From positions 1 to 56,590 of IMG/VR virus record IMGVR_UViG_3300037189_017720: a stretch of DNA of 56,590 nucleotides; one strand, 5' to 3'. This document shows, piece after piece, positions 4,894 to 23,277 of this stretch (position 1 is its first letter; each line of letters opens with the position of its first letter). The notes under the pieces were generated by a model. That model did not search any database. It saw nothing but the letters and a program-made list of their open reading frames with translations, and had not been told where the DNA came from. The position numbers were made by a program, and so were the translations under genes. Origin of the DNA: a virus.

Positions 4894-5511
4894 ATGAAAT
4901 CCAAAAAGAAAATCAAGTTAAAAAAAAATATGAATAAGACCATTGTTTCCAAGCCAAATAAAAATGTACAAAATGAAGTTAATCGTATTTTAAAACAAAA
5001 TATGTCATCTATGGATTTAAACGAATCACATATACCGTTTGTTTCAAGATTTTTAAAAACATTAATAAGAGAAGCAGAAGAAACAATTGCACCAGAAGTT
5101 CCAGAAAAAACAACTCCTGTTGATGGAAAATCTCCTGAAGAATTTACACCAGAAACAAATCAACAAGATTTTGAACAATCTTTAGAACCTTCCACTGACC
5201 CAAATCAATTTGAGACTGAAGGTGTTCCTAGTGATGTTACATCTGATACAATTAACAGCATCAAGCAATGGTCTGATAAATTAAATGAATTTGCTGAATT
5301 TTTAAATGATCCATCAACAAACTCACTTCATAAAATTTTAGCTGATGGTGACAGAGCAGGTAGCCTTTTACGAGGTGTTACTAGAAAAGCATCAGACTCA
5401 ATTACTCGTATTGCGGGTGAAGTTGAAAAGTTAAAAGAAATTCTTAATACATATATTATCACGGCACCCAAAAAGCTTCGTGATACTGAGCAGCTTAAAG
5501 CTGGAAGTTAG
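4894..5511 (+). CDS. acidic/helical hypothetical protein, possible internal head protein
   Basis: 205 aa, not recognised. A very basic N-terminus (MKSKKKIKLKKN) is followed at about residues 49-60 by FVSRFLKTLIREAEE, then a Pro/Glu/Thr-rich stretch (about 65-115) and a helical C-terminal half ending in KLRDTEQLKAGS. The segment FLKTLIRE resembles the L-x-E sites cut by T4-type prohead protease, so a scaffold or internal protein is possible but unproved. It is the only plus-strand gene between 2.3 and 8.4 kb. Its stop overlaps the stop of the primase gene on the other strand. Confidence 0.55.
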   Translation: MKSKKKIKLKKNMNKTIVSKPNKNVQNEVNRILKQNMSSMDLNESHIPFVSRFLKTLIREAEETIAPEVPEKTTPVDGKSPEEFTPETNQQDFEQSLEPSTDPNQFETEGVPSDVTSDTINSIKQWSDKLNEFAEFLNDPSTNSLHKILADGDRAGSLLRGVTRKASDSITRIAGEVEKLKEILNTYIITAPKKLRDTEQLKAGS

Positions 5512-6467
5512 TATAAATTTTCTATTAAAATTTTATAGTCTATTTCATCCAACTCTTCGAACATACACATTTCGTTGAAATCTTTATAAGACATACCATC
5601 TTTCCACATAAATACATTTTCTCCATTAGAGACAAGTTCTTTTATTTTATTACTAGCCGTTTCATCAAATTTAGGATTATCCAAAACCCATATTTTTTTA
5701 TGAAAAGGAAATTCCAAAAGTTGCTCTTCTTGCTTTTTTGTTAAAGTTATTCCCGCCGCACTTATTCCATTTTTTACAAACATGGAATCAATTGGGCCTT
5801 CAAAAATAAAAATATAAGGAATATCAATATTAACACGGTCTATTCCAAACAAAGTTTTATCATAACCCGTCTTCCCTAAATATTTTGGGTTGCTGTTATC
5901 AATAGATCTTGATTGATAAAATACAATTTTCCCGCTTCTATCATAAAAAGGAATACATATTCTGTTTTTATGTATAATATCAGTCAAGCTAATGAACAAA
6001 TTTAATGGTTTATTGATAGCAGTATTAAGTCTTCTTGATCTAATGTAAGAATTGGCTTCTTTGAATTTTAAATTATCTGAATAAAATTTTTGCTGTATTT
6101 CATCAAATAAATTTATGGAATCATATGGCAAGTCTGGAAGTTCTTTCTTCTTAATGAAAATTTCTTTGACTAATGTTTTTTCAACATCAAGAGATGATGT
6201 ATTACTTGATATTTCATAATCCAATTCATCCTTTGATATGTTGCAAACTTTGGTTATCCAAGAAAATGCTGACCATGTTTTTGAACAATTAAAACAATGA
6301 AACGTGTTAGATTCTGGATAAAAAAACAATCTTTTCTTTTTGCCTAAACTTTTACCTTCTTTGCATATAGGACAACCTGCATTGTATGTACCGTCATGTT
6401 TCCTGTATGTTGGTTCGTATGAATATGAATAAAATTTATTTAAAACAAATGTTTCTGGTATTTTCAC
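5508..6467 (-). CDS. gp61: DNA primase (gp61-like)
   Basis: 319 aa, GTG start. An N-terminal zinc-binding module has CPIC at 32-35 and HCFNC at 57-61, the DnaG/gp61-type finger that reads the priming site. A TOPRIM region follows: YIFIFEGPIDSMFVKNGISAAG near residues 217-240 and KIWVLDNPKFDETA after it, which provide the catalytic Glu and the metal-binding acidic residues. With the gp41 helicase it makes the RNA primers of the primosome. Just upstream is a TTGACT...TACACT promoter whose predicted start of transcription falls on the GTG. Confidence 0.85.
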   Translation of the reverse strand: MKIPETFVLNKFYSYSYEPTYRKHDGTYNAGCPICKEGKSLGKKKRLFFYPESNTFHCFNCSKTWSAFSWITKVCNISKDELDYEISSNTSSLDVEKTLVKEIFIKKKELPDLPYDSINLFDEIQQKFYSDNLKFKEANSYIRSRRLNTAINKPLNLFISLTDIIHKNRICIPFYDRSGKIVFYQSRSIDNSNPKYLGKTGYDKTLFGIDRVNIDIPYIFIFEGPIDSMFVKNGISAAGITLTKKQEEQLLEFPFHKKIWVLDNPKFDETASNKIKELVSNGENVFMWKDGMSYKDFNEMCMFEELDEIDYKILIENLY

Positions 6468-6473
6468 ACTTCA

Positions 6474-6503
6474 AGTGTAATTCAAAATACCCAATCAAGT
6501 CAA
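6474..6503 (-). promoter_or_regulatory. sigma70-like promoter of primase
   Basis: Minus strand: TTGACT (6503-6498), 18-base spacer, TACACT (6479-6474), then 6 bases to the GTG at 6467. The predicted start of transcription is the G of the GTG. The gp46 gene has the same TACACT-N6-GTG arrangement. Confidence 0.5.
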
Positions 6504-6507
6504 GCGT

Positions 6508-6927
6508 TTATTCCTGTTCCGGAATAAATAAGTCATCATGTTCCGAAGATTCTTCTTCTTGAGGCTCTTTAGACTCTTCGGTTTCGGCATTTTTATCATA
6601 ATCCTCAAATGGAGAATCTACCCGATCTCTTAAAAAGGTATAAATTAATTTACTATAACCGTCAGCTATAGTTGGTTTCCCAATACCTTTCATAATACTT
6701 TTTACATGGTCAGTAAAAGTTTTAGGTGTATATATTTCGTTTGAATTTAACTCATCAGCTATAGATAAAAAATGAGATTTATCATTACGATAATGATGAT
6801 GTTTATCTCCAATTTCGTTAATATGTTGTTTTACTTTTTCAATATTAACCTTAAACTTTTTTTTATCATCAGACTTTCTACCTTCGGTAAGAATGTTTTC
6901 GCAAAACAAATCAAAATTCTTTAACAT
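6508..6927 (-). CDS. hypothetical protein with capsid-targeting-like leader
   Basis: 139 aa, not recognised. The N-terminus MLKNFDLFCENILTE resembles in shape the capsid-targeting leader of T4 internal proteins (MKTYQEFIAE), which is cut after L/I-x-E by the prohead protease; ILTE would be that site. The middle is basic and helical, with KHHHYRNDKSHF. The C-terminus is strongly acidic (EESKEPQEEESSEHDD). A minus-strand GTAAATA core lies 5 nt before the start. An internal or core head protein is a hypothesis. Confidence 0.6.
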   Translation of the reverse strand: MLKNFDLFCENILTEGRKSDDKKKFKVNIEKVKQHINEIGDKHHHYRNDKSHFLSIADELNSNEIYTPKTFTDHVKSIMKGIGKPTIADGYSKLIYTFLRDRVDSPFEDYDKNAETEESKEPQEEESSEHDDLFIPEQE

Positions 6928-6932
6928 GTATA

Positions 6933-6939
6933 TATTTAC
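6933..6939 (-). promoter_or_regulatory. possible late promoter core
   Basis: Minus-strand GTAAATA, 5 nt before the ATG at 6927. It overlaps the end of the upstream kinase gene. The match is weak evidence on its own in AT-rich DNA. Confidence 0.25.
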
Positions 6940-7619
6940 CCTTTAAACATATCAGATTCTATGTTTTTCAAATCATTCATAGAAGCTGGTATAACAGTAT
7001 CAAGTAAATTTTCATCCTCCCCATATCCCTTACCTTCTTCGGTTATATAAAATTCAGTTAATTTAATTCTTTCGGTTGGACTTCCGAAAATTTCAATAAC
7101 TGCTGGTGTATCGTCTTTTGGAAAAATTCTACCATCACCTTTATGATAAGATTCTTCAAACACTTTAAAAATATTATCAATTTCTTCTCTATAAACCGGA
7201 TCAATTTCACGAAAACCATCATTTTCAATTTCAACAGTAGCCGCCTTTGTCATTGGGATAAAGAAAATAATATCATACAATTTCAAAGTTTCTCTGATAA
7301 TAATTCTTTGCTGATCTAAAAATTTTTCACTAACTTTATCATTTAAACATAACCATGTCGAGTATGCTAAAACATCAAGAACGGATCGGTCTAATATGAT
7401 ATTGTCTTTTTTTGAATAAGTTGTAGCTTGATCTATTAAAAAATCTAAAATAACCTTTTGAGTTTCTTCCGTTGCATCTTTGCTATGTGGAAGATTTTTT
7501 TCTTTAAGAATTTCTCTATATGATGTTTCGGGAGTACTATACATTGGCCATTTTTTAACAAAATCTTTAATGTAAGTTGTTTTTCCTATGTTGGTTGTTC
7601 CTATTACAGCTATTTTCAT
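6936..7619 (-). CDS. AAA_28-type nucleotide or nicotinamide-nucleotide kinase
   Basis: 227 aa P-loop protein. The Walker A motif GTTNIGKTT is at residues 7-15, DRSVLD is near residue 85, and a lid-like region (IFFIPMTKA...GFREIDPVYREEID) follows. This is the AAA_28 / NadR-kinase / thymidylate-kinase-like arrangement, with the DRS motif that binds the phosphoryl acceptor. It could phosphorylate a deoxynucleoside monophosphate or nicotinamide riboside; the substrate cannot be read. It follows a small unknown gene by 21 bases and probably shares that gene's promoter at 7934-7961. Confidence 0.7.
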   Translation of the reverse strand: MKIAVIGTTNIGKTTYIKDFVKKWPMYSTPETSYREILKEKNLPHSKDATEETQKVILDFLIDQATTYSKKDNIILDRSVLDVLAYSTWLCLNDKVSEKFLDQQRIIIRETLKLYDIIFFIPMTKAATVEIENDGFREIDPVYREEIDNIFKVFEESYHKGDGRIFPKDDTPAVIEIFGSPTERIKLTEFYITEEGKGYGEDENLLDTVIPASMNDLKNIESDMFKG

Positions 7620-7640
7620 ATTTATATAATTATTATTTTT

Positions 7641-7925
7641 TTAAAATTCACAACTCTTTTTTTCTATTTCGGGAAAATATTTAATCAATTCATCGGAATA
7701 TTCATCTAAAACAGGTTTGTTTTTATTTTCATGAATGTAAACATTATCTACAATAATTTCCGGAAACATTTGTCTAATTTTCTTAGCAATATCAAAAGAT
7801 ATGTTAGTATTTTCTTTATACCAATCAGAACATACGGATGCTGATGATGAAAATAATAAAGATTCTAATATAATCTTTAATTCTTCTGGACTTAATGAAT
7901 TAATATTGTAGGTTACATTTGTCAT
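7641..7925 (-). CDS. hypothetical protein (94 aa)
   Basis: Not recognised. It is a small mixed alpha/beta protein with LSPEELKIILESLLFSSSASVCSDWYKE and an acidic C-terminal half. It is preceded by a sigma70-like promoter (TTGATT-N16-TATTAT) and followed after 15 bases by the AAA-type kinase gene, so it is probably expressed early with it. Confidence 0.6.
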   Translation of the reverse strand: MTNVTYNINSLSPEELKIILESLLFSSSASVCSDWYKENTNISFDIAKKIRQMFPEIIVDNVYIHENKNKPVLDEYSDELIKYFPEIEKKSCEF

Positions 7926-7968: not shown

Positions 7969-8346
7969 TTATGAATTTGTTTCGGAAGTATCAACTGGTA
8001 AATTTGATTGATTGAAAATATAAATTAATTTGTCAACTGTATCTTCTGAATTTTCGCTATTAATTTTTGAAGGTAATTTATTTATTTCATTAACCGAATC
8101 AGCAGATAATGCTGAACCTTTTTGATAGAAATCTACAATTATTTCTATTAATTTTTCAATTTTTTCATTATCAACATCTTTAACTTTTGATTGAGTTTCT
8201 GGATCAAGTGTTGCTGTTGTTGGATCAACTGGTTGACCTGGCGCAGGTTCCGTGGCGGTTTCTGGTGTTGTGTCAAATTCAGGTAAACCATTTTCTTCTT
8301 TTAAAAACCTCTCAACCCTTTCACATAATTTTAAAAATTTACTCAT
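7969..8346 (-). CDS. hypothetical protein with capsid-targeting-like leader
   Basis: 125 aa, not recognised. The N-terminus MSKFLKLCERVERFLKEENG resembles the leader of the protein at 6508-6927 and T4 internal-protein targeting sequences; FLKE would be a prohead-protease-type site. Next comes a Pro/Thr/Glu-rich stretch (FDTTPETATEPAPGQPVDPTTATL) and a helical acidic C-terminus. A GTAAATA core lies 5 nt before the start, consistent with late expression. An internal head protein is a hypothesis. Confidence 0.55.
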   Translation of the reverse strand: MSKFLKLCERVERFLKEENGLPEFDTTPETATEPAPGQPVDPTTATLDPETQSKVKDVDNEKIEKLIEIIVDFYQKGSALSADSVNEINKLPSKINSENSEDTVDKLIYIFNQSNLPVDTSETNS

Positions 8347-8387: not shown

Positions 8388-8415
8388 TTGACATTATTAA
8401 TATATACAGTAACAT
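8388..8415 (+). promoter_or_regulatory. sigma70-like promoter of the bilin cassette
   Basis: TTGACA (8388-8393), 16-base spacer, TAACAT (8410-8415), then 8 bases to the ATG at 8424. The hexamers and spacing are the same as in front of gp32. A 7-bp inverted repeat (8381-8387 and 8396-8402) flanks the -35 element. Confidence 0.6.
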
Positions 8416-8423
8416 ATAAGAGT

Positions 8424-8957
8424 ATGACATTTCAACAAAAATTAAAAAATGAAACAAAAATTAAGCATGATTTAGCGGAACAACATGAGTTTAATGCTCA
8501 ATTAATGCAAGATAAACTATCAGATAGAAAATATTTTGTTTATCTTCAAAACATTTATCCGATTTATGATTATATTGAAAAAAGATTAAATTTTAGTGGA
8601 GAATTAATCAGATCAAATTTAATTCTTGCTGATATTTTACAATATTCCAGACAAGGACATAAAATTGACGAAAACGAACTATATTATTTTGATTGGATTA
8701 ACAATTTAGCACAAAAATCAGATCTAATGTTGTTATCTGAAGTGTATGTTGAATGGCTAAAAGACCTTTATGGTGGTCAAATTATTTCTAAGCACATTAA
8801 ATATAGCACATCATTAAAGTTTAACGATATTCCAAAAACAATTTCAGCTGTAAGATTACTATTGATCAATAGTTTAATAGAAAATGATGAATTTATTGAG
8901 GCGGTAAATAAGACTTATGATTTTCATTATAATTTATTAGAAAACATCATGGTATAA
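8424..8957 (+). CDS. ho1: heme oxygenase (biliverdin-forming)
   Basis: 177 aa. The family pattern is clear: LKNETKIKHDLAEQHEFNAQLMQDKLS at the N-terminus, with His15 in the place of the proximal heme ligand; YFVYLQNIYPIYDYIE; and YVEWLKDLYGGQI at 109-120, where DLYGGQ equals the distal-helix D-L-x-GGQ. The enzyme would use ferredoxin electrons and oxygen to open heme to biliverdin IX-alpha, iron and CO. It is shorter than usual bacterial heme oxygenases (about 200-240 aa). The ATG at 8424 was chosen because the promoter lies just before it and homology begins there. The stop overlaps the start of the bilin reductase gene (TAATG), so product and next enzyme are coupled. Confidence 0.85.
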   Translation: MTFQQKLKNETKIKHDLAEQHEFNAQLMQDKLSDRKYFVYLQNIYPIYDYIEKRLNFSGELIRSNLILADILQYSRQGHKIDENELYYFDWINNLAQKSDLMLLSEVYVEWLKDLYGGQIISKHIKYSTSLKFNDIPKTISAVRLLLINSLIENDEFIEAVNKTYDFHYNLLENIMV

Positions 8958-9622
8958 TGATCAAGCAACTCCATAACGAATATAGGGAATTATCAAACTT
9001 ATCATGTCAAAGGATTAAACATAATAATTCTTTGAAAAATGATGACATAATTTGGGAAAATGACATCTATTTTAATCCAAGTATTCGTTATGGGCATTTG
9101 CAATACTTTAAAAGTGGAAATGATAAGATTGAGATTATTCATTCAGTGTTCTATCCATCGTATTTTAAAAAATTACCAATATTTGGGTTTGATGTAATTG
9201 CTCTCAACGGTGTTATAACTGGTATTTTTTGTGATTTTACGGATTCTCCCTACGGATGTAGCGAACTTTCACTTAGTTTAAAAAAATTAAAAGAGAGATA
9301 CGGACCATATTCAAGAGAACTGCCACCTTGGGCAACTTTTTTTTCCGATAATTTTATTTGCATTAATCCAAAAGGACTAGATGAATCTATTTTAATTAAA
9401 GATTTTGTAGATATTTTTAAAAAATATATTTTTTTTGTTGCAAATGTAAATTTTAATGAAAGTTATTTTTTAATAGATGACATTAAAATGTCTATTGAAA
9501 CCCAAAACACCTATTCTTTCAATCAACGAAAGAATGAGAAAACATCTAAAGCATTATCCGCTTATATTGGTGCTGATGAAGCTAGAGAGTTTATGGAAAC
9601 TATATTATTTCCTATATATTAA
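8957..9622 (+). CDS. ferredoxin-dependent bilin reductase (PcyA/PebS/PcyX family)
   Basis: 221 aa. Family blocks are IEIIHSVFYPSYFKKLPIFGFDVIAL (56-83), ELPPWATFFSDNFICINP (121-138) and RKNEKTSKALSAYIGADEAREFM (191-213). Aligned by eye with Synechocystis PcyA, His62 equals His88 and Asp79 equals Asp105, but Gln49 takes the place of Glu76 and Glu194 the place of Asp220. Loss of Glu76, which PcyA needs for the vinyl reduction, points to a phycoerythrobilin-type product as in PebS or PcyX rather than phycocyanobilin (inference). It follows heme oxygenase with a one-base overlap, so the pair would turn heme into a reduced bilin using host ferredoxin. No phycobiliprotein or phytochrome gene is in the window. 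Confidence 0.85.
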   Translation: MIKQLHNEYRELSNLSCQRIKHNNSLKNDDIIWENDIYFNPSIRYGHLQYFKSGNDKIEIIHSVFYPSYFKKLPIFGFDVIALNGVITGIFCDFTDSPYGCSELSLSLKKLKERYGPYSRELPPWATFFSDNFICINPKGLDESILIKDFVDIFKKYIFFVANVNFNESYFLIDDIKMSIETQNTYSFNQRKNEKTSKALSAYIGADEAREFMETILFPIY

Positions 9623-10230
9623 ATACAACTTTCTATTAATTTAGCTTCCGCTTCTCTTCTGGATATTAAACCATCAAGATTTTTACCTTCCCAAAGTCTT
9701 TTCATTTTTCTAACTTCTCTAGCTATTCCTTTATAATCTTTTTTTAGAACTAAATCACGAATATTTCTCATTTCCAATCTACTTTCACCCTTCATAGAAG
9801 ATCCCCTATTGAATACCAAAGAAACTATAGCACCATAAGCATCATCTTTTAATTCTTCTAATTTAGGGAATGCATTTTCCGCTAATCTTGCAAATTTAGA
9901 CCAAATCAAATTATTAAATAAACTTAATGCTTGATCCCATGTAATTACAATACCAGAATCTTTATATTTTTTAGTATATTCCTTTCCAGATTGACCAGTT
10001 TTTCCTGAAGCATTCTTAACAATTTGTAATTGTTCTTTTGGTAAAAAATAAAACATTTTATCTAATTCGGATTGCGTATAATAACCACAATCAACACCTA
10101 TACCTAAAGTAAATCCACTAGCACCACCCGGCCATGTGGGTTTTGATAAATATTTTTCAAAATATGACTTACCTCCCCCAACTTCATATTCTAAAATTAA
10201 ATCTAATGCATTTTTTGATGGATTTTTCAT
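9619..10230 (-). CDS. endolysin, pesticin/T4-lysozyme-like muramidase
   Basis: 203 aa. The N-terminus LILEYEVGGGKSYFEKYL carries the probable catalytic Glu (16). FTLGIGVDCGYYTQSEL corresponds to the YTIGIGH block of T4 lysozyme and to pesticin-type muramidases. The C-terminal half (AIVSLVFNRGSSMKGESRLEMRNI, RLWEGKNLDGLISRREAEAKLIE) is the usual GH24-like end, compare NRGS and RRxxEAxL. It cuts peptidoglycan at lysis. No signal peptide is visible, so it needs the holin encoded just upstream, which it overlaps by 4 bases. It shares TTAA with the stop of the convergent bilin reductase gene. Confidence 0.85.
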   Translation of the reverse strand: MKNPSKNALDLILEYEVGGGKSYFEKYLSKPTWPGGASGFTLGIGVDCGYYTQSELDKMFYFLPKEQLQIVKNASGKTGQSGKEYTKKYKDSGIVITWDQALSLFNNLIWSKFARLAENAFPKLEELKDDAYGAIVSLVFNRGSSMKGESRLEMRNIRDLVLKKDYKGIAREVRKMKRLWEGKNLDGLISRREAEAKLIESCI

Positions 10231-15045: not shown

Positions 15046-16070
15046 TGAAAATAAACAATAAACATATAGGATGTTTTTCCGACATCCATCTTGGGTTGAA
15101 TCAAGATAATAAAGAATGGCATAACATAGCTTTAGATTTTGCTAAATGGGCATCTGAAACTTATAAGAAGTTTGGTATTAATGAAATTATAATACCGGGA
15201 GATATATTTCATAATAGAAGTTTTATATCGGTTGAAACCTTATCAGTAACAAAAAAATTTTTTGATTATTTTAAAGACTTTACAATATATATTTCAACAG
15301 GAAACCATGATTCATTTTTAAAAGAATCAAGTTCAATAAATTCAATATCAATTTTAGATGGGTGGGATAACATTCATATTATAGATAATGACCCTATGGT
15401 TCTGGAAACCAATTACTCTAAAACTATTGGATTGATTCCTTGGGGAACATCGTTAGACAAAATGCCAAAAACTGATATTATGTTTGGTCATTTTGAAATT
15501 AACTCCTTTTATATGAATTCTTATAAAATCTGTGAGCATGGATTTTCATACAATGATCTTTTTGAACGTTCCCCCATTATTATATCTGGACACTTTCATA
15601 AAAAAGATAATAGATCTTATAAAAACGGCAATATAACCTATTTAGGAAGTCCATATCAACAAAATTTTGGAGACACTTTAGATGAAAGAGGCATTTACAT
15701 TTTAGATTTAGAAAAAGATGATTTTGTTTTTTTCAAAAATGAAATTTCTCCAAAATATTTCAAATTAAAAATTGGCGAAGATGTTTCAGAAAATATTATT
15801 AAAAATAATTTTATTAGTTTAATTGTTGATAATAATTTAGATGAAGAAAAAATAATAGAGTATAAAGGTAAATTATCAGCATTATCTCCTAAAATTATAA
15901 GAGTTGATTATAATGAAAAAGAAACAAAAATTGATGTATTGGAAGAAAACAAAGAACTTGGAACTAATAATTTAATGCAAAGTATAGAAGAATATGTTGA
16001 AACATTAAAACCAGAAAATAAAAAAGAAGTTGTAGAATATATAAGGATGATGTATAATTCTTTAATATGA
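15045..16070 (+). CDS. gp47: recombination endonuclease subunit gp47 (Mre11/SbcD-like)
   Basis: 341 aa. Metallophosphoesterase motifs are GCFSDIHLG (8-16), IIPGDIFHNR (about 49-58), STGNHDSF, FGHFEI and ISGHFHKKD, supplying the Asp/His/Asn ligands of the di-manganese site. With gp46 it resects ends and helps degrade host DNA. It begins on the last base of the sigma gene stop and overlaps the first glycosyltransferase by 4 bases. Its partner gp46 is 7.2 kb downstream, unlike T4, where the genes are adjacent or nearly so. Confidence 0.9.
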   Translation: MKINNKHIGCFSDIHLGLNQDNKEWHNIALDFAKWASETYKKFGINEIIIPGDIFHNRSFISVETLSVTKKFFDYFKDFTIYISTGNHDSFLKESSSINSISILDGWDNIHIIDNDPMVLETNYSKTIGLIPWGTSLDKMPKTDIMFGHFEINSFYMNSYKICEHGFSYNDLFERSPIIISGHFHKKDNRSYKNGNITYLGSPYQQNFGDTLDERGIYILDLEKDDFVFFKNEISPKYFKLKIGEDVSENIIKNNFISLIVDNNLDEEKIIEYKGKLSALSPKIIRVDYNEKETKIDVLEENKELGTNNLMQSIEEYVETLKPENKKEVVEYIRMMYNSLI

Positions 16071-16816
16071 GTGATATTGGAATAGCAATTATTGATGTGT
16101 ATGATCAAGAAAATTTAAATTCTTGCTACGAATCAATTGAAAATAAAGAAAATTTAATTATTATTTCTAATACAAATAATAAGTTGCCTGATTGTGAGAA
16201 AAAACAATTCAGTGGATTTATTCCATTTGCCACATTAAGAAATTATGCAATCAACAATTTTAGAATTAAAGGATTAAAACATTTTTTTATAATTAATTCA
16301 AATCAAATAATAAAAGATCAAAATGTTTTTGAAAAAACCATAAAAACTGCTGATGTTTTTGGTATTTGGGCTTTTTTAGGACCGGAAATGCTAAAATTAT
16401 CAATTGAAGATGATCAACACAATATATCCTTAAATCTTTCCGAAAACATTAATAGCGATTTTATATATCTACATACTGGTATTATAACAAATATTGGTTT
16501 CTTTGATGAGAGATGCTTTAACACCAAAAGTCTTGATGTTCTTGATTATATTTTAAGAATGAGGAGTAAAAAAGTATTCCCACCAACTGGATTTATACCA
16601 ACAATAAATGATGGATTGGAAAAAATGAAAGGGAATATTAAAAAAACAAATTATAGGGAGATTCAAGATGCGGATCAAAGTGTTAATATGTCATATGCTT
16701 ATTTTTTAACACAACATAGCTATATACCAACGCAAAATGATCCAAAGTCTGTTTCTAATAATGAATTAATGTCTTCTTTGGAAGAACTTCAAAAAAATTA
16801 TTCAAATAAATTATGA
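16067..16816 (+). CDS. GT-A-like glycosyltransferase (divergent)
   Basis: 249 aa. It resembles GT2-type proteins in general form (IGIAIIDVYDQENLNSCYESIE, then FATLRNYAINNF...HFFIINSNQIIKDQNVFE) and ends with a region like the acceptor side (TGIITNIGFFDERCF). The metal-binding DxD is replaced by NSN, so activity may be lost or metal-independent. It is the first gene of the sugar island, joined to gp47 by an ATGA overlap. Family assignment is moderate. Confidence 0.5.
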   Translation: MSDIGIAIIDVYDQENLNSCYESIENKENLIIISNTNNKLPDCEKKQFSGFIPFATLRNYAINNFRIKGLKHFFIINSNQIIKDQNVFEKTIKTADVFGIWAFLGPEMLKLSIEDDQHNISLNLSENINSDFIYLHTGIITNIGFFDERCFNTKSLDVLDYILRMRSKKVFPPTGFIPTINDGLEKMKGNIKKTNYREIQDADQSVNMSYAYFLTQHSYIPTQNDPKSVSNNELMSSLEELQKNYSNKL

Positions 16817-17676
16817 ACAAAGAAAAAATAGGAGTTGGTATTACCACCTGCAATAGACTTGAATATTTTAATCAATGTTTCAATAGTCTTGACTTATCTA
16901 AAATTGACCATTTAGTTGTTGTAAATGACGGTTTTCCTGTTAATTTTGATGATTATCAATTAAATGATAAAGTACATATCATACAAAATGAAAAAAATAT
17001 TGGTGTGGGAAGATCTAAAAATAAAATACTTCAACATCTTCTTGATATGAAGTGTGATCATATTTTTACCCTTGAAGATGATTGCATCATTACAGATAAT
17101 AATGTTTTTGAAGAATACATTAAAGCATCAAAAGAAACCGGATTAAAGCATTTTAATTTTGGTCCGGGGAGTCCTTGGAATAGATTCCAAGAAGACAGTT
17201 CTGTTATTGGAGATCTTTCTAAAAGACAATTAGCATCTCAAACCGGAAACCCTAACCCAAAAATGACTATAAATTACAAAAATAATGTTTCTATATGTCT
17301 TTATGAACATATCGTTGCTATGTTTTGTTATTTTGATGCAAAAGCATTGCGTGATGTTGGTTTATTAGAAGAGAGGTTCTATAATGCTTGGGAACATGTG
17401 GAACATACTCTTAGATTTATTAAAAAAGATTATTATACTCCTTTCTGGTGGTTTGCTGACATTAATGGTAGCGAAAAATACATTAAAGAAGCTAAAGATG
17501 AAAAAGCAAAAACATCTTTAGCGAAAAATGAAGAACAATTCATGAAACAAGTACAAGATGGGCTTAAAATTTTTTATGAATTACATCAAACCGTACCATC
17601 AAACATTGCAGCAGCACCATCTAACTATATTAAACCATTATTAAAGAGAATTTATGATAGAAACGCAAATAATTGA
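16813..17676 (+). CDS. family 2 glycosyltransferase
   Basis: 287 aa. GVGITTCNRLEYFNQCFNSL is the GT2 start, LVVVNDGF and NIGVGRSKNKIL follow, and FTLEDDC is the DxD-type metal site (about residue 92). YNAWEHVEHTLRFIKKDY is probably the catalytic-base helix. It would act on a nucleotide-sugar in the cytoplasm; no membrane segment is seen. It is linked by an ATGA overlap to the upstream gene and by a 23-base overlap to the next methyltransferase. Confidence 0.8.
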   Translation: MNKEKIGVGITTCNRLEYFNQCFNSLDLSKIDHLVVVNDGFPVNFDDYQLNDKVHIIQNEKNIGVGRSKNKILQHLLDMKCDHIFTLEDDCIITDNNVFEEYIKASKETGLKHFNFGPGSPWNRFQEDSSVIGDLSKRQLASQTGNPNPKMTINYKNNVSICLYEHIVAMFCYFDAKALRDVGLLEERFYNAWEHVEHTLRFIKKDYYTPFWWFADINGSEKYIKEAKDEKAKTSLAKNEEQFMKQVQDGLKIFYELHQTVPSNIAAAPSNYIKPLLKRIYDRNANN

Positions 17677-18253
17677 TGAAAGAATAGTTTTAACGCAGCA
17701 TTTAGATGAATTTGAAATTCTTTTACATGAATATATTAATTTAAATGCTAAAAATGTATTAGAAATAGGTTCTTATTTCGGTTACTCATTGCACCATTGG
17801 CTTTATTATAGTGCAAAAAATGCAAAAATTGTCAGTATCGATTTACCAATTTCAGAATTTTGTGGACAATCTGATCCACGTGTACCTGTTCAAGAGTATG
17901 TTATTGCAAATGAATGGAAAGTTTGGACAAAAAGAAATAACAATAAACTTTTTTTGATACAAAACTCCTCTCAATTAGAAAGCACAAGGGAAAAATCTAT
18001 TAATTTAATTAATAATGAAAAATTTGATTTTGTTTTTATTGACGGGGATCATCGTTATGAAGCAGTTAAAACTGATTTTGAAATGTATTTACCTACAGTT
18101 AAAAGCGGAGGCATCATAGCACTACATGATATTGGATATGCGGAAGAAGGTGGAGTACATCAACTTTGGGACGAAATAAAAAGCGGGTTTAAACACAAAG
18201 AACTGAGACTGCATCCTAATAATGAAAAGGGAATAGGAATTATATTTGTATGA
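17654..18253 (+). CDS. class I SAM-dependent methyltransferase (Methyltransf_24-like)
   Basis: 199 aa. Motif I is NVLEIGSYFGYSLHHWL, the acidic end of strand 2 is KIVSIDLP, and FDFVFIDGDHRYEAVKTDFEMYLPTVKSGGIIALHDI holds motif IV and the following strand. This is the Methyltransf_24 / cephalosporin-hydroxylase-like pattern typical of sugar O-methyltransferases in polysaccharide clusters. It probably methylates a sugar made by its neighbours (inference). Confidence 0.8.
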   Translation: MIETQIIDERIVLTQHLDEFEILLHEYINLNAKNVLEIGSYFGYSLHHWLYYSAKNAKIVSIDLPISEFCGQSDPRVPVQEYVIANEWKVWTKRNNNKLFLIQNSSQLESTREKSINLINNEKFDFVFIDGDHRYEAVKTDFEMYLPTVKSGGIIALHDIGYAEEGGVHQLWDEIKSGFKHKELRLHPNNEKGIGIIFV

Positions 18254-19065
18254 TAACGTTTGTAACACATTTAAGATACGATAATCATGATAGAATTGAA
18301 AATTTAAACACAATTATTCGTTATTATTCTAATAACATTAGAGATGTTAAATTTATCTTTATCGAAGATGATAAAGAGCATAATAAAGCCTTTGATTTGG
18401 TTAATTTTGTTAAAGGTAAAACATCTTTTAATTTTGTCAAAAACGATTCTATCTACTATAGAACTAGAGCCTTAAACATTGGCATTAAAATGGCTCAAAG
18501 TGATGTTGTTGTATCATTAGATACCGATTGTATAGTTCCAATTGAATCCTTACTGGCATGTAAAGATGCATTGCTGAACGGCGCAACAGTAGCTTGGCCT
18601 TATAATGGTTATTTTGTAGACGTTTCTCAACAACTTCGTAATAAAATAGTAACCTCTCAATTTAATTATGGCGATATTTTACAACAATTAGACTCAAATT
18701 TTAATTTACCATTAAGTTCAAGTTACAAAGATTTCCACGTAAGATGCACAAACAATCAACACCTCGGAACTGGTGGTATTGTTATGTTTAACCGTAGTCT
18801 GTTTATTGAGGCTGGTGGATATAATGAAAATTTTATAGGTTGGGGTTGTGAAGATAATGAAATCGTTTCTAGATTAGATACTCTTGAACATAAAAAATTT
18901 AGAGATACAAGACCAGAAGCTATATGTTTTCATCTTTTTCATAGATCGGCGCAAAGGGCTGAAAATCCATTTTTTAACAACAATAGTGAAGAATGGCATA
19001 AAATAAAAAATATGAATAAGGCAGAAATGCTTGAATACATTTCAAAATGGGGACAATTTAAATGA
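18250..19065 (+). CDS. GT-A glycosyltransferase, galactosyltransferase-like C-terminus
   Basis: 271 aa. SLDTDCIVP (DxD) is near residue 91, and GTGGIVMFNRSLFIEAGGYNENFIGWGCEDNEI near 173-205 matches the Glyco_transf_7C pattern (GGxxxF-GWGxEDxD) of galactosyltransferases and chondroitin-polymerase-like enzymes. The GWGCED motif places the catalytic acid. It has ATGA overlaps on both sides, so it is translated with the rest of the island. Confidence 0.8.
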   Translation: MITFVTHLRYDNHDRIENLNTIIRYYSNNIRDVKFIFIEDDKEHNKAFDLVNFVKGKTSFNFVKNDSIYYRTRALNIGIKMAQSDVVVSLDTDCIVPIESLLACKDALLNGATVAWPYNGYFVDVSQQLRNKIVTSQFNYGDILQQLDSNFNLPLSSSYKDFHVRCTNNQHLGTGGIVMFNRSLFIEAGGYNENFIGWGCEDNEIVSRLDTLEHKKFRDTRPEAICFHLFHRSAQRAENPFFNNNSEEWHKIKNMNKAEMLEYISKWGQFK

Positions 19066-19862
19066 TTACTACCAGTCAATTGGGACGAAATGGTGAATTT
19101 GGAAATCATTTATTTCAAATTGCCGCCACCATAGGTCATGCTATAAAAGTAAATCAAGATTATATCTTTCCTAGATGGGTTGGGCTATCGTCAAAAGACT
19201 ATTATACTAAATATTTTTTAAATAAAATACCAGAAACAGATAATTTAAAACAAACTAAACAATTTTGGAATGAACCACATTTCCATTATCACGAAATACC
19301 AAATGTAACAGATTTAGATTTATTTGGATATTTTCATAGTGAAAAATATTTTAAACATTGCAGTGATATTATTAGAAATTACCTACTAGAGCCTAGTGAA
19401 ATTTTAAAAAATATAAATATTATCGATTATAGTAATACGGTATGCATTCAAATGAGATTTTATGATAATAAAAGACCATATGATGTTAGTCATATCGGTC
19501 ATAAACTAGATCCGGAAGGATCCATTTACTATCAACCAGAAGAAATTTTGGATTATTATATAAAAGCTATAAATTATTTTGGAAAAAATAAAACATTTTT
19601 TATAGTAACAAACAATCCAGAAAAAGCAAAACGTTTATTTTCAACATATAAAAACATTTATGTATTAGATAATTTTAATTATTTAGAACAATTTTTTATA
19701 CAAACTAAATGTGAAAATAACATTATTTCTAATTCTTCTTTTGGTTGGTGGGGGGCTTGGTTAAATTCTAACACAGATAAAATTGTTTTTGCTCCCCAAA
19801 AATGGTTTAAAGACGATAAAATCACAAAAGATTTATATCCCCAAAAATGGAAAATTTTATGA
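19062..19862 (+). CDS. GT11-like fucosyltransferase homologue
   Basis: 266 aa. The start RNGEFGNHLFQIAATIGHA equals the GT11 GxLGNQLFQYA block, and the end ENNIISNSSFGWWGAWLN equals xxISNSTFSWWGAWL. These define alpha-1,2-fucosyltransferases. The HxRRGD motif that binds GDP-fucose is present only as VCIQMRFYDNKRPYD, so His and one Arg are missing. The enzyme may use another donor or be altered. It lies between two GT-A enzymes in one operon. Confidence 0.75.
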   Translation: MITTSQLGRNGEFGNHLFQIAATIGHAIKVNQDYIFPRWVGLSSKDYYTKYFLNKIPETDNLKQTKQFWNEPHFHYHEIPNVTDLDLFGYFHSEKYFKHCSDIIRNYLLEPSEILKNINIIDYSNTVCIQMRFYDNKRPYDVSHIGHKLDPEGSIYYQPEEILDYYIKAINYFGKNKTFFIVTNNPEKAKRLFSTYKNIYVLDNFNYLEQFFIQTKCENNIISNSSFGWWGAWLNSNTDKIVFAPQKWFKDDKITKDLYPQKWKIL

Positions 19863-20584
19863 TAAACATATTTACAATAGCAACAAATAAATATAAATTT
19901 TTTATTAATTCTTTTTATAAAAGTTTTAATGAAAAATTTATATTAGATGAAAAAAAACAATTTTATATTTTTACGGACGATTTAAATCATGAAATTTTTA
20001 ATAATGAAAATACAAAAGGTATATTAATAAAACACGAAGAATGGCCTCATATAACACTTAAACGATATAATAATATTAAATCTATATTAAACAAATTAAC
20101 AAACAATGATGATCTTTGTTTTTTTATAGATATTGATATGGAAGTAATGCAAGATATAGCTAAAATCTTATTACCGCCTCAAAAAAAATATATAGGTGTT
20201 GTGCATCCCAGTAATATAAACAATTCGATGGATGCGGAATTAGAATCTAACCCAAAAAGTTCAGCATATGTTGATCTTTCACAAACCGAATCAACAAATC
20301 CTTATATACAGGGGTGTTTATGGGGTGCAAGGAAGATTGATTTTGAGTATATGATTAATATTTTAGACGAAATGGTTAAAATCGATTTAAATTCTGGTAT
20401 TATAGCTAAATGGCATGATGAATCTCATTTAAATAAATTTAAAATTTTAAATAAAAAAGAATTTGGATTTTTATCATCAGATTTTTGTTATCCTGAAAAA
20501 TGGAATTTACCAAAAAATGTAAAAAAAACAATTATACATAAAGATAAAAATTACATAGACTTTCCAAGATTTAAAAATAATTAA
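19859..20584 (+). CDS. GT6 (ABO-type) glycosyltransferase homologue
   Basis: 241 aa. INIFTIATNKYKFFINSFYKSF, FYIFTDD, HEEWPHITLKRYNNI, CFFIDIDMEVM (DxD), GVVHPSN, PYIQGCLWGAR and IAKWHDESHLNKFKI are in the same order as in GT6, the family of human ABO transferases and bacterial relatives. WHDESHLN is the family signature. Known members add alpha-1,3 Gal or GalNAc. The metal site is DxD as in animals, whereas many bacterial members have NxN. The ATG at 19859 gives an ATGA overlap like its neighbours, so it is preferred to the one at 19847. Confidence 0.85.
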   Translation: MINIFTIATNKYKFFINSFYKSFNEKFILDEKKQFYIFTDDLNHEIFNNENTKGILIKHEEWPHITLKRYNNIKSILNKLTNNDDLCFFIDIDMEVMQDIAKILLPPQKKYIGVVHPSNINNSMDAELESNPKSSAYVDLSQTESTNPYIQGCLWGARKIDFEYMINILDEMVKIDLNSGIIAKWHDESHLNKFKILNKKEFGFLSSDFCYPEKWNLPKNVKKTIIHKDKNYIDFPRFKNN

Positions 20585-20592
20585 AACGTATT

Positions 20593-21282
20593 ATGAAAAA
20601 CAAATTAAAAATATATTCAATACAATATAATTCTCCAAATTATATTTATTTACAAAATAAAAGTTTTAATAAACATATTAAAACACCATACGAATTTATT
20701 ATTATAAATAATGCAGTTAATGATAATAAAATAAAAGAAATTCAAAAAATATCAGAGGGATTAGGTTTACAACACATACATACTAAAAATGATATAAATA
20801 AAGTTAAAGATCATTCTTCAGATTCTCATGCTTATGCTTTAAATTTTTTACTATCTGATGTTATAAAAGATGATGATATAGTAATGATTTTAGATCATGA
20901 TATATTTTTAATAGAAGATTTAGATGAAACGTATTATAAAAATTATGATATAATATACACAATACAAAAAAGATCACATATCGAATATCCTTGGGCTGGT
21001 TTTATTGTTATAAACAAAGTAAAGAATAAATCAGATATGTCATTTAATTTGTGCATAGTAGATAATAATTTATTGGATACTGGAGGTAGTATGTATTTTT
21101 ATTTAAAAAAACACAAATTAAATAGCAAAATTGTAAAAGAATTATTTTTTAATGACGAAACACCATTAAGATATTCTATTATAGATGATAAATTTTTGCA
21201 TATTGTAGCAGGGTGTGATTGGAATCCTTTTTATAATTTAAATGAAAAACTTCAAATGTTAAAAGAAAAATTTAGTTTATAA
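20593..21282 (+). CDS. GT-A-type glycosyltransferase-like protein
   Basis: 229 aa. YSIQYNSPNYIYLQNKSFNKHI...EFIIINNA starts like a nucleotide-sugar fold, IVMILDHDIFLIED carries a DxD (DHD, about residue 97), and NNLLDTGGSMYFYL may form the acceptor loop. No named family was recognised beyond this. The gene is even more AT-rich than the first half of the island. It lies 8 bases after the GT6 gene. Confidence 0.6.
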   Translation: MKNKLKIYSIQYNSPNYIYLQNKSFNKHIKTPYEFIIINNAVNDNKIKEIQKISEGLGLQHIHTKNDINKVKDHSSDSHAYALNFLLSDVIKDDDIVMILDHDIFLIEDLDETYYKNYDIIYTIQKRSHIEYPWAGFIVINKVKNKSDMSFNLCIVDNNLLDTGGSMYFYLKKHKLNSKIVKELFFNDETPLRYSIIDDKFLHIVAGCDWNPFYNLNEKLQMLKEKFSL

Positions 21283-21286
21283 CATT

Positions 21287-21907
21287 ATGGAAACAATAAT
21301 AATAAAAGAACATACACTTATTAAAGATTTTATTAAAGATAAAAATTTAACTATTATAGATTTAGGTGCTTGTATTGGTGAATTTAGTTCAAAAATAAAT
21401 GAATTATTTGCAGTTAAAAAATCTATTTTAGTTGAAGCTAATCCAACAAATTTTAATAAACTTCCAAAAAATAAAAATTTTATATGTTTAAATAAAGCAG
21501 TTTACATTGAAAGCAATAATAAAATTAAATTTAAAGAAGATTTAACATCACCCTATAACGGTTCTATTGTATTAAATTATTTTTCAAATACAGCTAAAGA
21601 ACATATAATTGATACCATATCTTTAAAAGATTTAATAGAGATTATGGACGTAGATGATGAAATAGACATTCTTAAAATTGATATAGAGGGATGTGAATAT
21701 ATGATTTTAGAAAACGTATCAGATGATGTTTTATTAAAATTTAAACAAATTACAATAGAATTTCATGATTTTGTAGATAAAAAATTTGAATATAAAAATA
21801 AAATTATAGAAGAAAAATTTTTAAAATTAGGATTTAAATCCATAAAAAATAAAATAAATTGGTTGAATAATTCTGATTATTATGATACATTATTTTATAA
21901 ATTATAA
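21287..21907 (+). CDS. FkbM family methyltransferase
   Basis: 206 aa. TIIDLGACIGEFSSKI is motif I, KSILVEANPTNFNKL is motif II with the acidic residue, and ISLKDLIEIMDVDDEIDILKIDIEGCEYMILEN is the FkbM hallmark (DIEGxE). FkbM enzymes O-methylate sugars and polyketides, and in clusters like this they usually modify a glycan. It is spaced by 4 bases from the upstream gene. Confidence 0.85.
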   Translation: METIIIKEHTLIKDFIKDKNLTIIDLGACIGEFSSKINELFAVKKSILVEANPTNFNKLPKNKNFICLNKAVYIESNNKIKFKEDLTSPYNGSIVLNYFSNTAKEHIIDTISLKDLIEIMDVDDEIDILKIDIEGCEYMILENVSDDVLLKFKQITIEFHDFVDKKFEYKNKIIEEKFLKLGFKSIKNKINWLNNSDYYDTLFYKL

Positions 21908-21912
21908 TTTAT

Positions 21913-22536
21913 ATGGGTATCTCATTACAATTATTTAATAAATACAATAAAATTAAAACATTGTTTAATTCTAATATGACATTATTAGAACTAGGAGATC
22001 AAGATATTTGTTTTAATCCACATTATGGTAAAAAATTTAGAAATTCAAATGAAAAATTTTTTTATAAAGATTGGAAAACATTAGATTTACATGAAAGAAA
22101 TGGCGTTACAATAAAAGATTTATCTATATTAAATAATGATATTGGAAAATGGGATATAATTACTAATTTTGGAACATCAGAACATGTTGAACCCGAAGTT
22201 GGACATTATAATTGTTGGAAAAATATACACAATTGGTTATTTTTAGGTGGTTATTCTATACATGAATTACCCGAAGTAGGAGCATGGCCTAATCATTGTC
22301 GTTATTATTATAATGAAGATTTTTTTAATCATTTTACAAAAATTGGATATGAAATAATTGAAAATTCAACTATTTTTTATGAAGATAACGGTAATTTGAG
22401 ATTTTGTATTATGAAAAAAATAAAAGATATAAGTTTTTTTTCTAATTTATTTTTTGATAAAATTGTACATATTGAAAAAAATAATACATCTATTACAATA
22501 AATCCCGAAAATAATCCAAAAGGTTTAATTTTTTAA
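21913..22536 (+). CDS. SAM-dependent methyltransferase-like protein
   Basis: 207 aa. TLLELGDQDICFNP resembles motif I (E-x-GxQ form), KTLDLHERNGVTIKDL supplies the acidic residue after strand 2, and GKWDIITNFGTSEHVE corresponds to motif IV of class I methyltransferases. YSIHELPEVGAWPNHCRYYY follows. The G-rich loop is LGDQD rather than the usual GxGxG, so the fold call is firmer than the activity. It probably modifies the same glycan as its neighbours. Confidence 0.65.
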   Translation: MGISLQLFNKYNKIKTLFNSNMTLLELGDQDICFNPHYGKKFRNSNEKFFYKDWKTLDLHERNGVTIKDLSILNNDIGKWDIITNFGTSEHVEPEVGHYNCWKNIHNWLFLGGYSIHELPEVGAWPNHCRYYYNEDFFNHFTKIGYEIIENSTIFYEDNGNLRFCIMKKIKDISFFSNLFFDKIVHIEKNNTSITINPENNPKGLIF

Positions 22537-22545
22537 TATAAAAAT

Positions 22546-23277
22546 ATGAATATTGCTATTTGTTATTTAACTAATAATAAAAATACATTAGAAATGGAAA
22601 GAAGATACAATCTTTTACCGTCTAATACTGACAATTTTATTATTTATGATAAAAAAGAAAATTTAAATTATAATAATAATATTAAAACTTTTAATTTTAA
22701 TTTTAACTTATTAGATATTTCAAAAACGGATTTACCATTAGATAATAACGAAAGAACGATATATAGATTTACATATATATCACTGTTATATTTTTATGAA
22801 AAATATCCAAATTATGATTATTATTGGTTAATAGAAGAAGATTTAATTTTTAATGGAGATTTTCATTTATTTTTTAACTCTACAGAGTCATTAAAAGAAG
22901 ATTTTATTGGATGTTATGGGCATTTTAAAAAAGATAAAGAAATTAATGTTCAACATTGGTTTACAATTGAACCTAATAGAATATATGGAAATTATGAACA
23001 TAAATTTCCATTAGTTGGTGGGTTTATTGGTATACAAAGAATGTCAAATGCACTTATAAAGGAATTACATAAAAAAGCTTTTAGTGATGGTATTTTTGGT
23101 AATGCGGAAAGTTTTCCTGCAACACTTGCATATTTAAATAATATGAAACTTGGATTTTTGGAAAAAATATTTAAAGAATACTATTCAAGAGAATATTGTG
23201 ATTGGAATAAAAGATTTTGTTTAAATGATCTTCAGCGTTTACCAAAAAACAATTTAATTCATGCAGTTAAATTTTAA
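22546..23277 (+). CDS. putative GT-A glycosyltransferase
   Basis: 243 aa. YDYYWLIEEDLIFNGDFHLFF has the form of a donor/metal site (EED in place of DxD), and FPLVGGFIGIQRMSNALIKELH resembles the acceptor side of Golgi-type GT-A proteins. The pattern is close to DUF3405-like proteins (YW..E.Dv..tG.w). It is the last gene of the island, ending 40 bases before gp46. Confidence 0.55.
   Translation: MNIAICYLTNNKNTLEMERRYNLLPSNTDNFIIYDKKENLNYNNNIKTFNFNFNLLDISKTDLPLDNNERTIYRFTYISLLYFYEKYPNYDYYWLIEEDLIFNGDFHLFFNSTESLKEDFIGCYGHFKKDKEINVQHWFTIEPNRIYGNYEHKFPLVGGFIGIQRMSNALIKELHKKAFSDGIFGNAESFPATLAYLNNMKLGFLEKIFKEYYSREYCDWNKRFCLNDLQRLPKNNLIHAVKF

Follow-up and report, generated by a model that had tools for sequence, protein, structure and literature searches.

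The window analyzed here, the full 56,590-nucleotide stretch of the viral record IMGVR_UViG_3300037189_017720, carries a two-gene cassette for heme oxygenase (HO) and a ferredoxin-dependent bilin reductase (FDBR), and its reductase belongs to a phage clade in which two positions, 76 and 86 in PcyA numbering, have repeatedly changed together, being either Glu and Val or Gln and Ile. The HO-FDBR cassette as such is of an already known kind: phage hemO-FDBR cassettes have been described from both marine and freshwater sources, with PEB-making PcyX and a PCB-making freshwater enzyme that lacks Asp55 (PMC11480375). The reading developed below, to which we give about an even chance of being right, is that a T4-like phage carries the pair as an auxiliary cassette for converting heme to a bilin, that residues 76 and 86 act as a two-residue switch in the phage-clade reductase, and that the Q76/I86 form present in the window would yield phytochromobilin, possibly with some PEB.

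The cassette lies on the + strand and is flanked on both sides by genes on the - strand (Table 1). Both products score well above the curated Pfam cut-offs (HO, 48.4 bits against a cut-off of 23 for PF01126; FDBR, 70.9 bits against 31 for PF05996), and these matches, together with the PcyA-type fold described below, bear out the first-pass annotation of a phage HO and bilin reductase cassette. HO was above the Pfam cut-off in 14 of the 15 related phage contigs tested, and in the remaining one HO is truncated by the end of the contig. The pairing is therefore conserved, and chance does not account for it. The pair had also been described as a fused, overlapping operon with one promoter. Fusion is ruled out, since there are two separate ORFs; they overlap by one base at the junction TAATG, with the HO stop codon at 8955-8957 and the FDBR ATG at 8957-8959. 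A conserved -35 box precedes the pair. The sequence TTGACA-16-TAACAT matches the promoter consensus at 10 of 12 positions, the TTGACA beginning 36 bases before the HO start; a scan for such matches gave 16 sites where 11.4 were expected. A stronger basis than the consensus scan is an alignment of four related phages (L244, L245, L246, and L247), whose sequences ahead of the HO gene share TTGACAT at the same spot and little else, suggesting that a single promoter may drive both genes. No alaS gene was found near the pair in this 56.6-kb fragment, the Pfam-scanned neighbors being phage lysozyme, an AAA-domain protein, and a primase-like protein; in this the window differs from the three-gene hemO-pcyA/X-alaS phage cassette.

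Table 1. Features of the HO-FDBR cassette and its immediate surroundings, in window coordinates.
Feature	Position	Strand	Basis or remark
Gene upstream of cassette	7969-8346	-	On the opposite strand
-35-like box TTGACA	8388-8393	+	Motif scan; TTGACAT identical in four related phages
-10-like box TAACAT, weak match	8410-8415	+	Consensus match only; support below that of the -35 box
HO gene	8424-8957	+	177 aa; Pfam PF01126, E 1.3e-12
HO His15 codon, proximal heme ligand position	8466-8468	+	Alignment to solved HO chains; invariant
HO Lys113-Asp114 codons	8760-8765	+	HO-1 Asp140 position kept; Gly139 position is Lys
FDBR gene	8957-9622	+	221 aa; PF05996, E 1.6e-19
FDBR Gln49 codon CAA	9101-9103	+	PcyA Glu76 / PcyX Asp55 position
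FDBR Ile60 codon	9134-9136	+	PcyA Ile86 position; partner of Gln49
FDBR His62 codon	9140-9142	+	PcyA His88 position
FDBR Asp79 codon	9191-9193	+	PcyA Asp105 position
FDBR Glu194 codon	9536-9538	+	PcyA Asp220 / PebS Asp206 position
Phage lysozyme gene	9619-10230	-	Pfam; four-base overlap between its end and the FDBR stop

For HO, residues are compared in human HO-1 numbering, which we take from established knowledge of the family combined with alignment. The alignment of full-length relatives shows no variation at His15, Asp114 (HO-1 Asp140), and Gly117-Gly118 (HO-1 Gly143-Gly144). The distal motif reads LKDLYGGQ in the window protein as against LGDLSGGQ, with Tyr at the Ser142 position. At the Gly139 position the window and its close kin carry Lys, the other clade members Ala, and pelagiphage Mosig Gly. 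The distal Gly139 of the GDLSGG motif is thus absent, as a lineage variant, and membership of the family does not depend on it. HO would be expected to be a working, biliverdin-forming enzyme.

The reductase is PcyA-like in fold but not in all of its diagnostic residues. Its best sequence matches among solved structures are all PcyA, the top one being 3i95, the laboratory E76Q mutant of Synechocystis PcyA, in which residue 76 is the same as in the window. The AlphaFold model (pLDDT 94.7) is closest to PcyA (Z 25.6, 2.4 A over 216 residues), followed by PebA, PebB, and phytochromobilin synthase. Alignment to PcyA confirmed that Gln49, His62, Asp79, and Glu194 correspond to PcyA 76, 88, 105, and 220, as first proposed. 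With cyanobacterial PcyA (Synechocystis, PDB 2D1E) the window protein shares the fold (Z about 25), His88, and the Asp105 equivalent expected of an FDBR (Asp79); it differs in lacking Glu76, the 18-vinyl proton donor (Gln49 instead), in scoring 99.1 bits against the NCBIfam PcyA equivalog, whose cut-off is 206, and in falling in a separate clade. The Mosig FDBR is nearly the same as solved PcyX (5OWG), and its Asp55 aligns exactly at the Gln49 position, so that the “PcyX-specific Asp55” of PMC11480375 is PcyA position 76. At this position the window enzyme has neither the Glu of PcyA nor the Asp of PcyX. The PebS pattern, an Asp105/Asp206 pair without His88, is likewise not matched: Asp79 and Glu194 are present, but the window enzyme retains His62 at the position of an Asn in PebS. 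Glu194 had initially been taken as part of the active-site signature. Position 220, however, varies freely among phage FDBRs (Asp, Glu, Ser, or Thr within the clade; Lys, Pro, or Gln elsewhere), which rules out Glu194 as a functional marker, and it has no pattern like that of 76 and 86.

Eighteen phage FDBRs, that of the window included, form one clade (support 100/99) next to PcyX and alphaproteobacterial-type PcyA. The larger group holding all three (100/100) excludes cyanobacterial and cyanophage PcyA, and PcyX is a clade of its own (100/98) with the window FDBR outside; these trees are based on about 229 columns, with PebS (sequence from NC_006883) a very long branch that serves as a distant row only. 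The separate clade and the Gln at the Asp55 position together rule out membership of PcyX. The nearest kin of the window FDBR (L085, L088, L006, L005, and L087; 54-60% identity) belong to the same group of phages, in which the cassette occupies one shared site beside neighbors that are 33-83% identical; they keep Glu at 76. A scan of genome contigs for close bacterial relatives yielded three loci, 25-29% identical, of which two fall within phage PcyX, and sampling of 199 and 385 genomes of two bacterial groups turned up few FDBRs. The FDBRs L151 and L152, on contigs binned as Pirellulales and Neomarinimicrobiota, fall inside phage PcyX, and these contigs may be viral or misbinned. Two other arrangements were seen in passing. 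A PcyX-like reductase on a long branch (L237:6950-7615) has Ser at PcyA 76 and Met at 86, another natural variant at the proton-donor site. In L052, a PebS-like FDBR gene of about 208 aa (5234-5860) directly precedes a PcyA-like one (5863-6552), and similar tandem pairs occur in L048, L097, L108, L127, L142, and other viral contigs.

Across the 276 alignment columns of the 18-row clade, only positions 76 and 86 split the rows without overlap: position 76 is Gln in five and Glu in 13, and position 86 is Ile in the same five and Val in the same 13, the five being the window and four other sequences from separate contigs. That close relatives have Glu76, and that position 76 changes jointly with position 86, lay beyond the view of the first-pass annotation. 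When the tree was built without columns 76 and 86, each position needed at least four changes by parsimony, and all four independent pairs were concordant (with four pairs, the p-value of a sign test cannot fall under 0.125). Under LG+G simulation on the same tree, 0.074 perfectly separating columns were expected per 229, and the exact one-residue-versus-one-residue pattern was found in none of 500,000 simulated columns; for a single two-state site, the exact pattern had a probability of at most 2.8e-5, and there were 26 two-state columns. A Pagel-type comparison of dependent with independent evolution gave LR 19.6 and p 6e-4 for the clade rows, and p 1.4e-3 when four outside rows including L093 were added, p-values that apply to a column pair picked after looking.

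The change in the window lineage lies deep in the tree and is distinct from the changes in the clade's other half, where L007 and L008, 87% identical in protein sequence, differ at both 76 and 86. The Q/I genes are under purifying selection (dN/dS about 0.06 for L002 versus L013). Some of the four changes could be exchanges of gene pieces between related phages and not new mutations: around positions 76-86, L007 and L010 are more alike than they are overall. Recent gene conversion is thus a possible explanation of the whole switch, although synonymous differences persist in that segment. The sole exception seen to the pairing of Gln76 with Ile86 lies outside the clade (L093:2306-3007, with Q76 and V86). 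Cyanobacterial PcyA combines E76 with I86, so I86 does not require Q76. In PcyA, Ile86 lies near Glu76 and Asp105, and an I86D mutant breaks proton delivery (PMC9800206), so that a pairing of 76 with 86 makes structural sense.

In the proposed mechanism, an infected cell would express HO and the bilin reductase from one phage promoter; HO would convert heme to biliverdin IXalpha, iron, and CO, and the reductase would take electrons from host ferredoxin. The position of the D-ring proton donor (PcyA Glu76) and the nearby position 86 would then form the two-residue switch of the clade. Most members, with E76/V86, are expected to be PcyA-like and to produce phycocyanobilin. The Q76/I86 enzymes (the window and the four others) would leave the 18-vinyl group and reduce the A-ring, giving phytochromobilin and possibly some PEB, but not phycocyanobilin. 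The basis is that, among FDBRs, Glu76 is a PcyA-specific residue that 18-vinyl reduction requires, and that of the FDBRs without it, pre-2 makes phytochromobilin and pre-3 makes phytochromobilin and PEB (PMC10151467). We therefore favor an A-ring-reduced bilin, most likely phytochromobilin, as the product of the window enzyme. These pre-PcyA enzymes of heterotrophic bacteria resemble it in having Asp105 and lacking Glu76 (PMC10151467), but pre-2 has Asn and pre-3 has Thr where the window keeps the His88 equivalent, and they belong to other gene clusters; the rows of the tree include neither pre-2 nor pre-3.

The product first suggested from the residue combination was PEB, by a four-electron reduction. 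Such a PEB synthase by another route, taking biliverdin to PEB or stopping at 15,16-dihydrobiliverdin, and using Glu194 in place of the second PebS/PebB aspartate, is possible but not favored, and we consider it somewhat unlikely. The earlier-characterized phage FDBRs of two-gene hemO cassettes were PcyX and made PEB (PMC11480375), the pre-3 enzyme without Glu76 makes PEB besides phytochromobilin (PMC10151467), and the residue at the PebS Asp206 position is still a carboxylate. A close comparison is with PcyX itself (marine phage PEB synthase, for example PcyX_EBK42635, PDB 5OWG; pelagiphage Mosig), likewise encoded in a phage two-gene hemO-FDBR cassette and likewise related to PcyA with the His88 and Asp105 positions kept. 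In PcyX, however, residue 76 is Asp, residue 86 is Met, and residue 220 is Pro, the last of which means that Glu194 is no PEB marker; the window protein has Gln49 in place of the PcyX-specific Asp55, lies outside the PcyX clade, and is 27% identical to the Mosig reductase. The tested FDBRs that lack Glu76 make phytochromobilin with or without PEB, and the freshwater phage CB_2 enzyme (PcyA/X, “PcyA*”), which also lacks Asp55 and is also encoded with hemO, was reported as midway between PcyX and PcyA and made PCB, not PEB (PMC11480375). The comparison with CB_2, whose phage also has alaS, is with its published description. In Mosig (L003:1500-5915), the stretch immediately upstream of HO and PcyX holds four genes annotated as 2OG-Fe(II) oxygenases and one as “putative ferrochelatase.”

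Phycocyanobilin as the product after all, if Ile86 or some other group made up for Gln at 76, would fit the enzyme's fold and mostly PcyA-like active site and the E76/I86 state of cyanobacterial PcyA, in which I86 is the normal residue; the PcyA-specific requirement for Glu76 in 18-vinyl reduction (PMC10151467) makes this improbable. Decay of the gene, or an assembly error at codon 49, would need as little as one base change from Glu to Gln (GAA to CAA) in a lineage represented by a single record. But the same change with the same partner is present in four other sequences from separate contigs, one Q/I sequence was recovered identically in two metagenomes (L013 and L014), the ORFs are intact, and dN/dS is well below 1, leaving this very improbable indeed. 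A different kind of alternative is that the cassette serves heme breakdown for iron, CO, or redox relief, in which case the bilin would be waste and residue 76 irrelevant. HO is the first gene of the operon, no biliprotein (GAF) or photosystem gene was found in 12 contigs, and a part in iron supply is among the roles discussed for cassettes of this kind (PMC11480375). Release of iron or CO needs no reductase, however, although every relative checked has kept the two genes together; repeated coupled change at a product-setting residue would also be hard to explain if the product were waste, and on balance we judge this alternative unlikely. A pure iron or CO function would be indifferent to the reduction product, and the repeated coupled change hints, if weakly, that the product matters.

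The reductase gene has also moved. In the half of the clade that does not hold the window FDBR, the cassette follows gp43 in L173, L177, and L184, lies between uvsX and gp41 in L180, L182, and L183, and stands beside the gene for a 1,500-aa protein in a second phage genus (L175, L176, and L178). The L179 cassette locus is identical to that of L178, and the gp43 of the L179 phage is just 53% identical to that of the first genus. Sister FDBRs repeatedly come from different sites, which indicates that the FDBR gene moved between phage genera. The HO tree pairs L173 with L184 and L175 with L178, whereas the FDBR tree pairs L010 (of L173) with L012 (of L175) and L002 (of L184) with L013 (of L178); some forks of both trees are modestly supported, and their disagreement suggests that the reductase was in part exchanged on its own. 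The L173/L177/L184 and L175/L176/L178 loci (about 6400-7650) represent two unrelated cassette sites in two phage genera, and each sister reductase pair spans both.

The window phage is T4-like, with a family-B DNA polymerase and a T4-type terminase by Pfam; other replication genes are presumed from the ORF list. The best terminase matches are weak (about 34%) and mostly to alphaproteobacterial T4-like phages, and those of the polymerase come from cyanophages, at 29%. A run of about nine same-strand genes of the window (16067-23277), flanked by a gp47-like and a gp46-like gene, reads in the ORF list like glycosyltransferases and methyltransferases. In L259 (G008:C1:30370-32909), the DNA polymerase gene is split or frameshifted near its end, with four stops inside the match, possibly an assembly error. 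No Fer2 ferredoxin was found in the window and 11 related contigs, which are linear and may be fragments, and the electrons would therefore have to come from the host. The same contigs, again linear and possibly fragmentary, gave no GAF photoreceptor, and none of them, up to 226 kb in length, gave a Photo_RC match. The absence of photosystem genes noted at first for the window thus extends to its relatives, and the 12 contigs give no support to a cyanophage with photosystem genes. A user of the bilin, if there is one, is then probably in the host.

The role of phage heme-to-bilin cassettes in apparently non-cyanobacterial hosts has been called enigmatic (PMC11480375). Neither a natural Gln76 PcyA or phage phytochromobilin synthase, nor a clade-wide E/Q switch with a partner at 86, was found described in the literature searched, with most subscription journals lying outside it. 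The clade supplies natural PcyA Glu76Gln enzymes for the study of product change in FDBRs, and the repeated coupled change at the residue of PcyA regiospecificity provides matched enzyme pairs, such as L007 versus L008, for comparison of products. Should those products differ, the cassette would need an explanation beyond the supply of iron or CO. A broader and more tentative proposal, which we hold at somewhat less than an even chance, is that phages of the clade repeatedly flip between E76/V86 and Q76/I86 in a horizontally exchanged reductase, so that the bilin made in one kind of host would differ between related phages. If this reading of the switch is true, the identity of the bilin itself, beyond the breakdown of heme, would be under selection.
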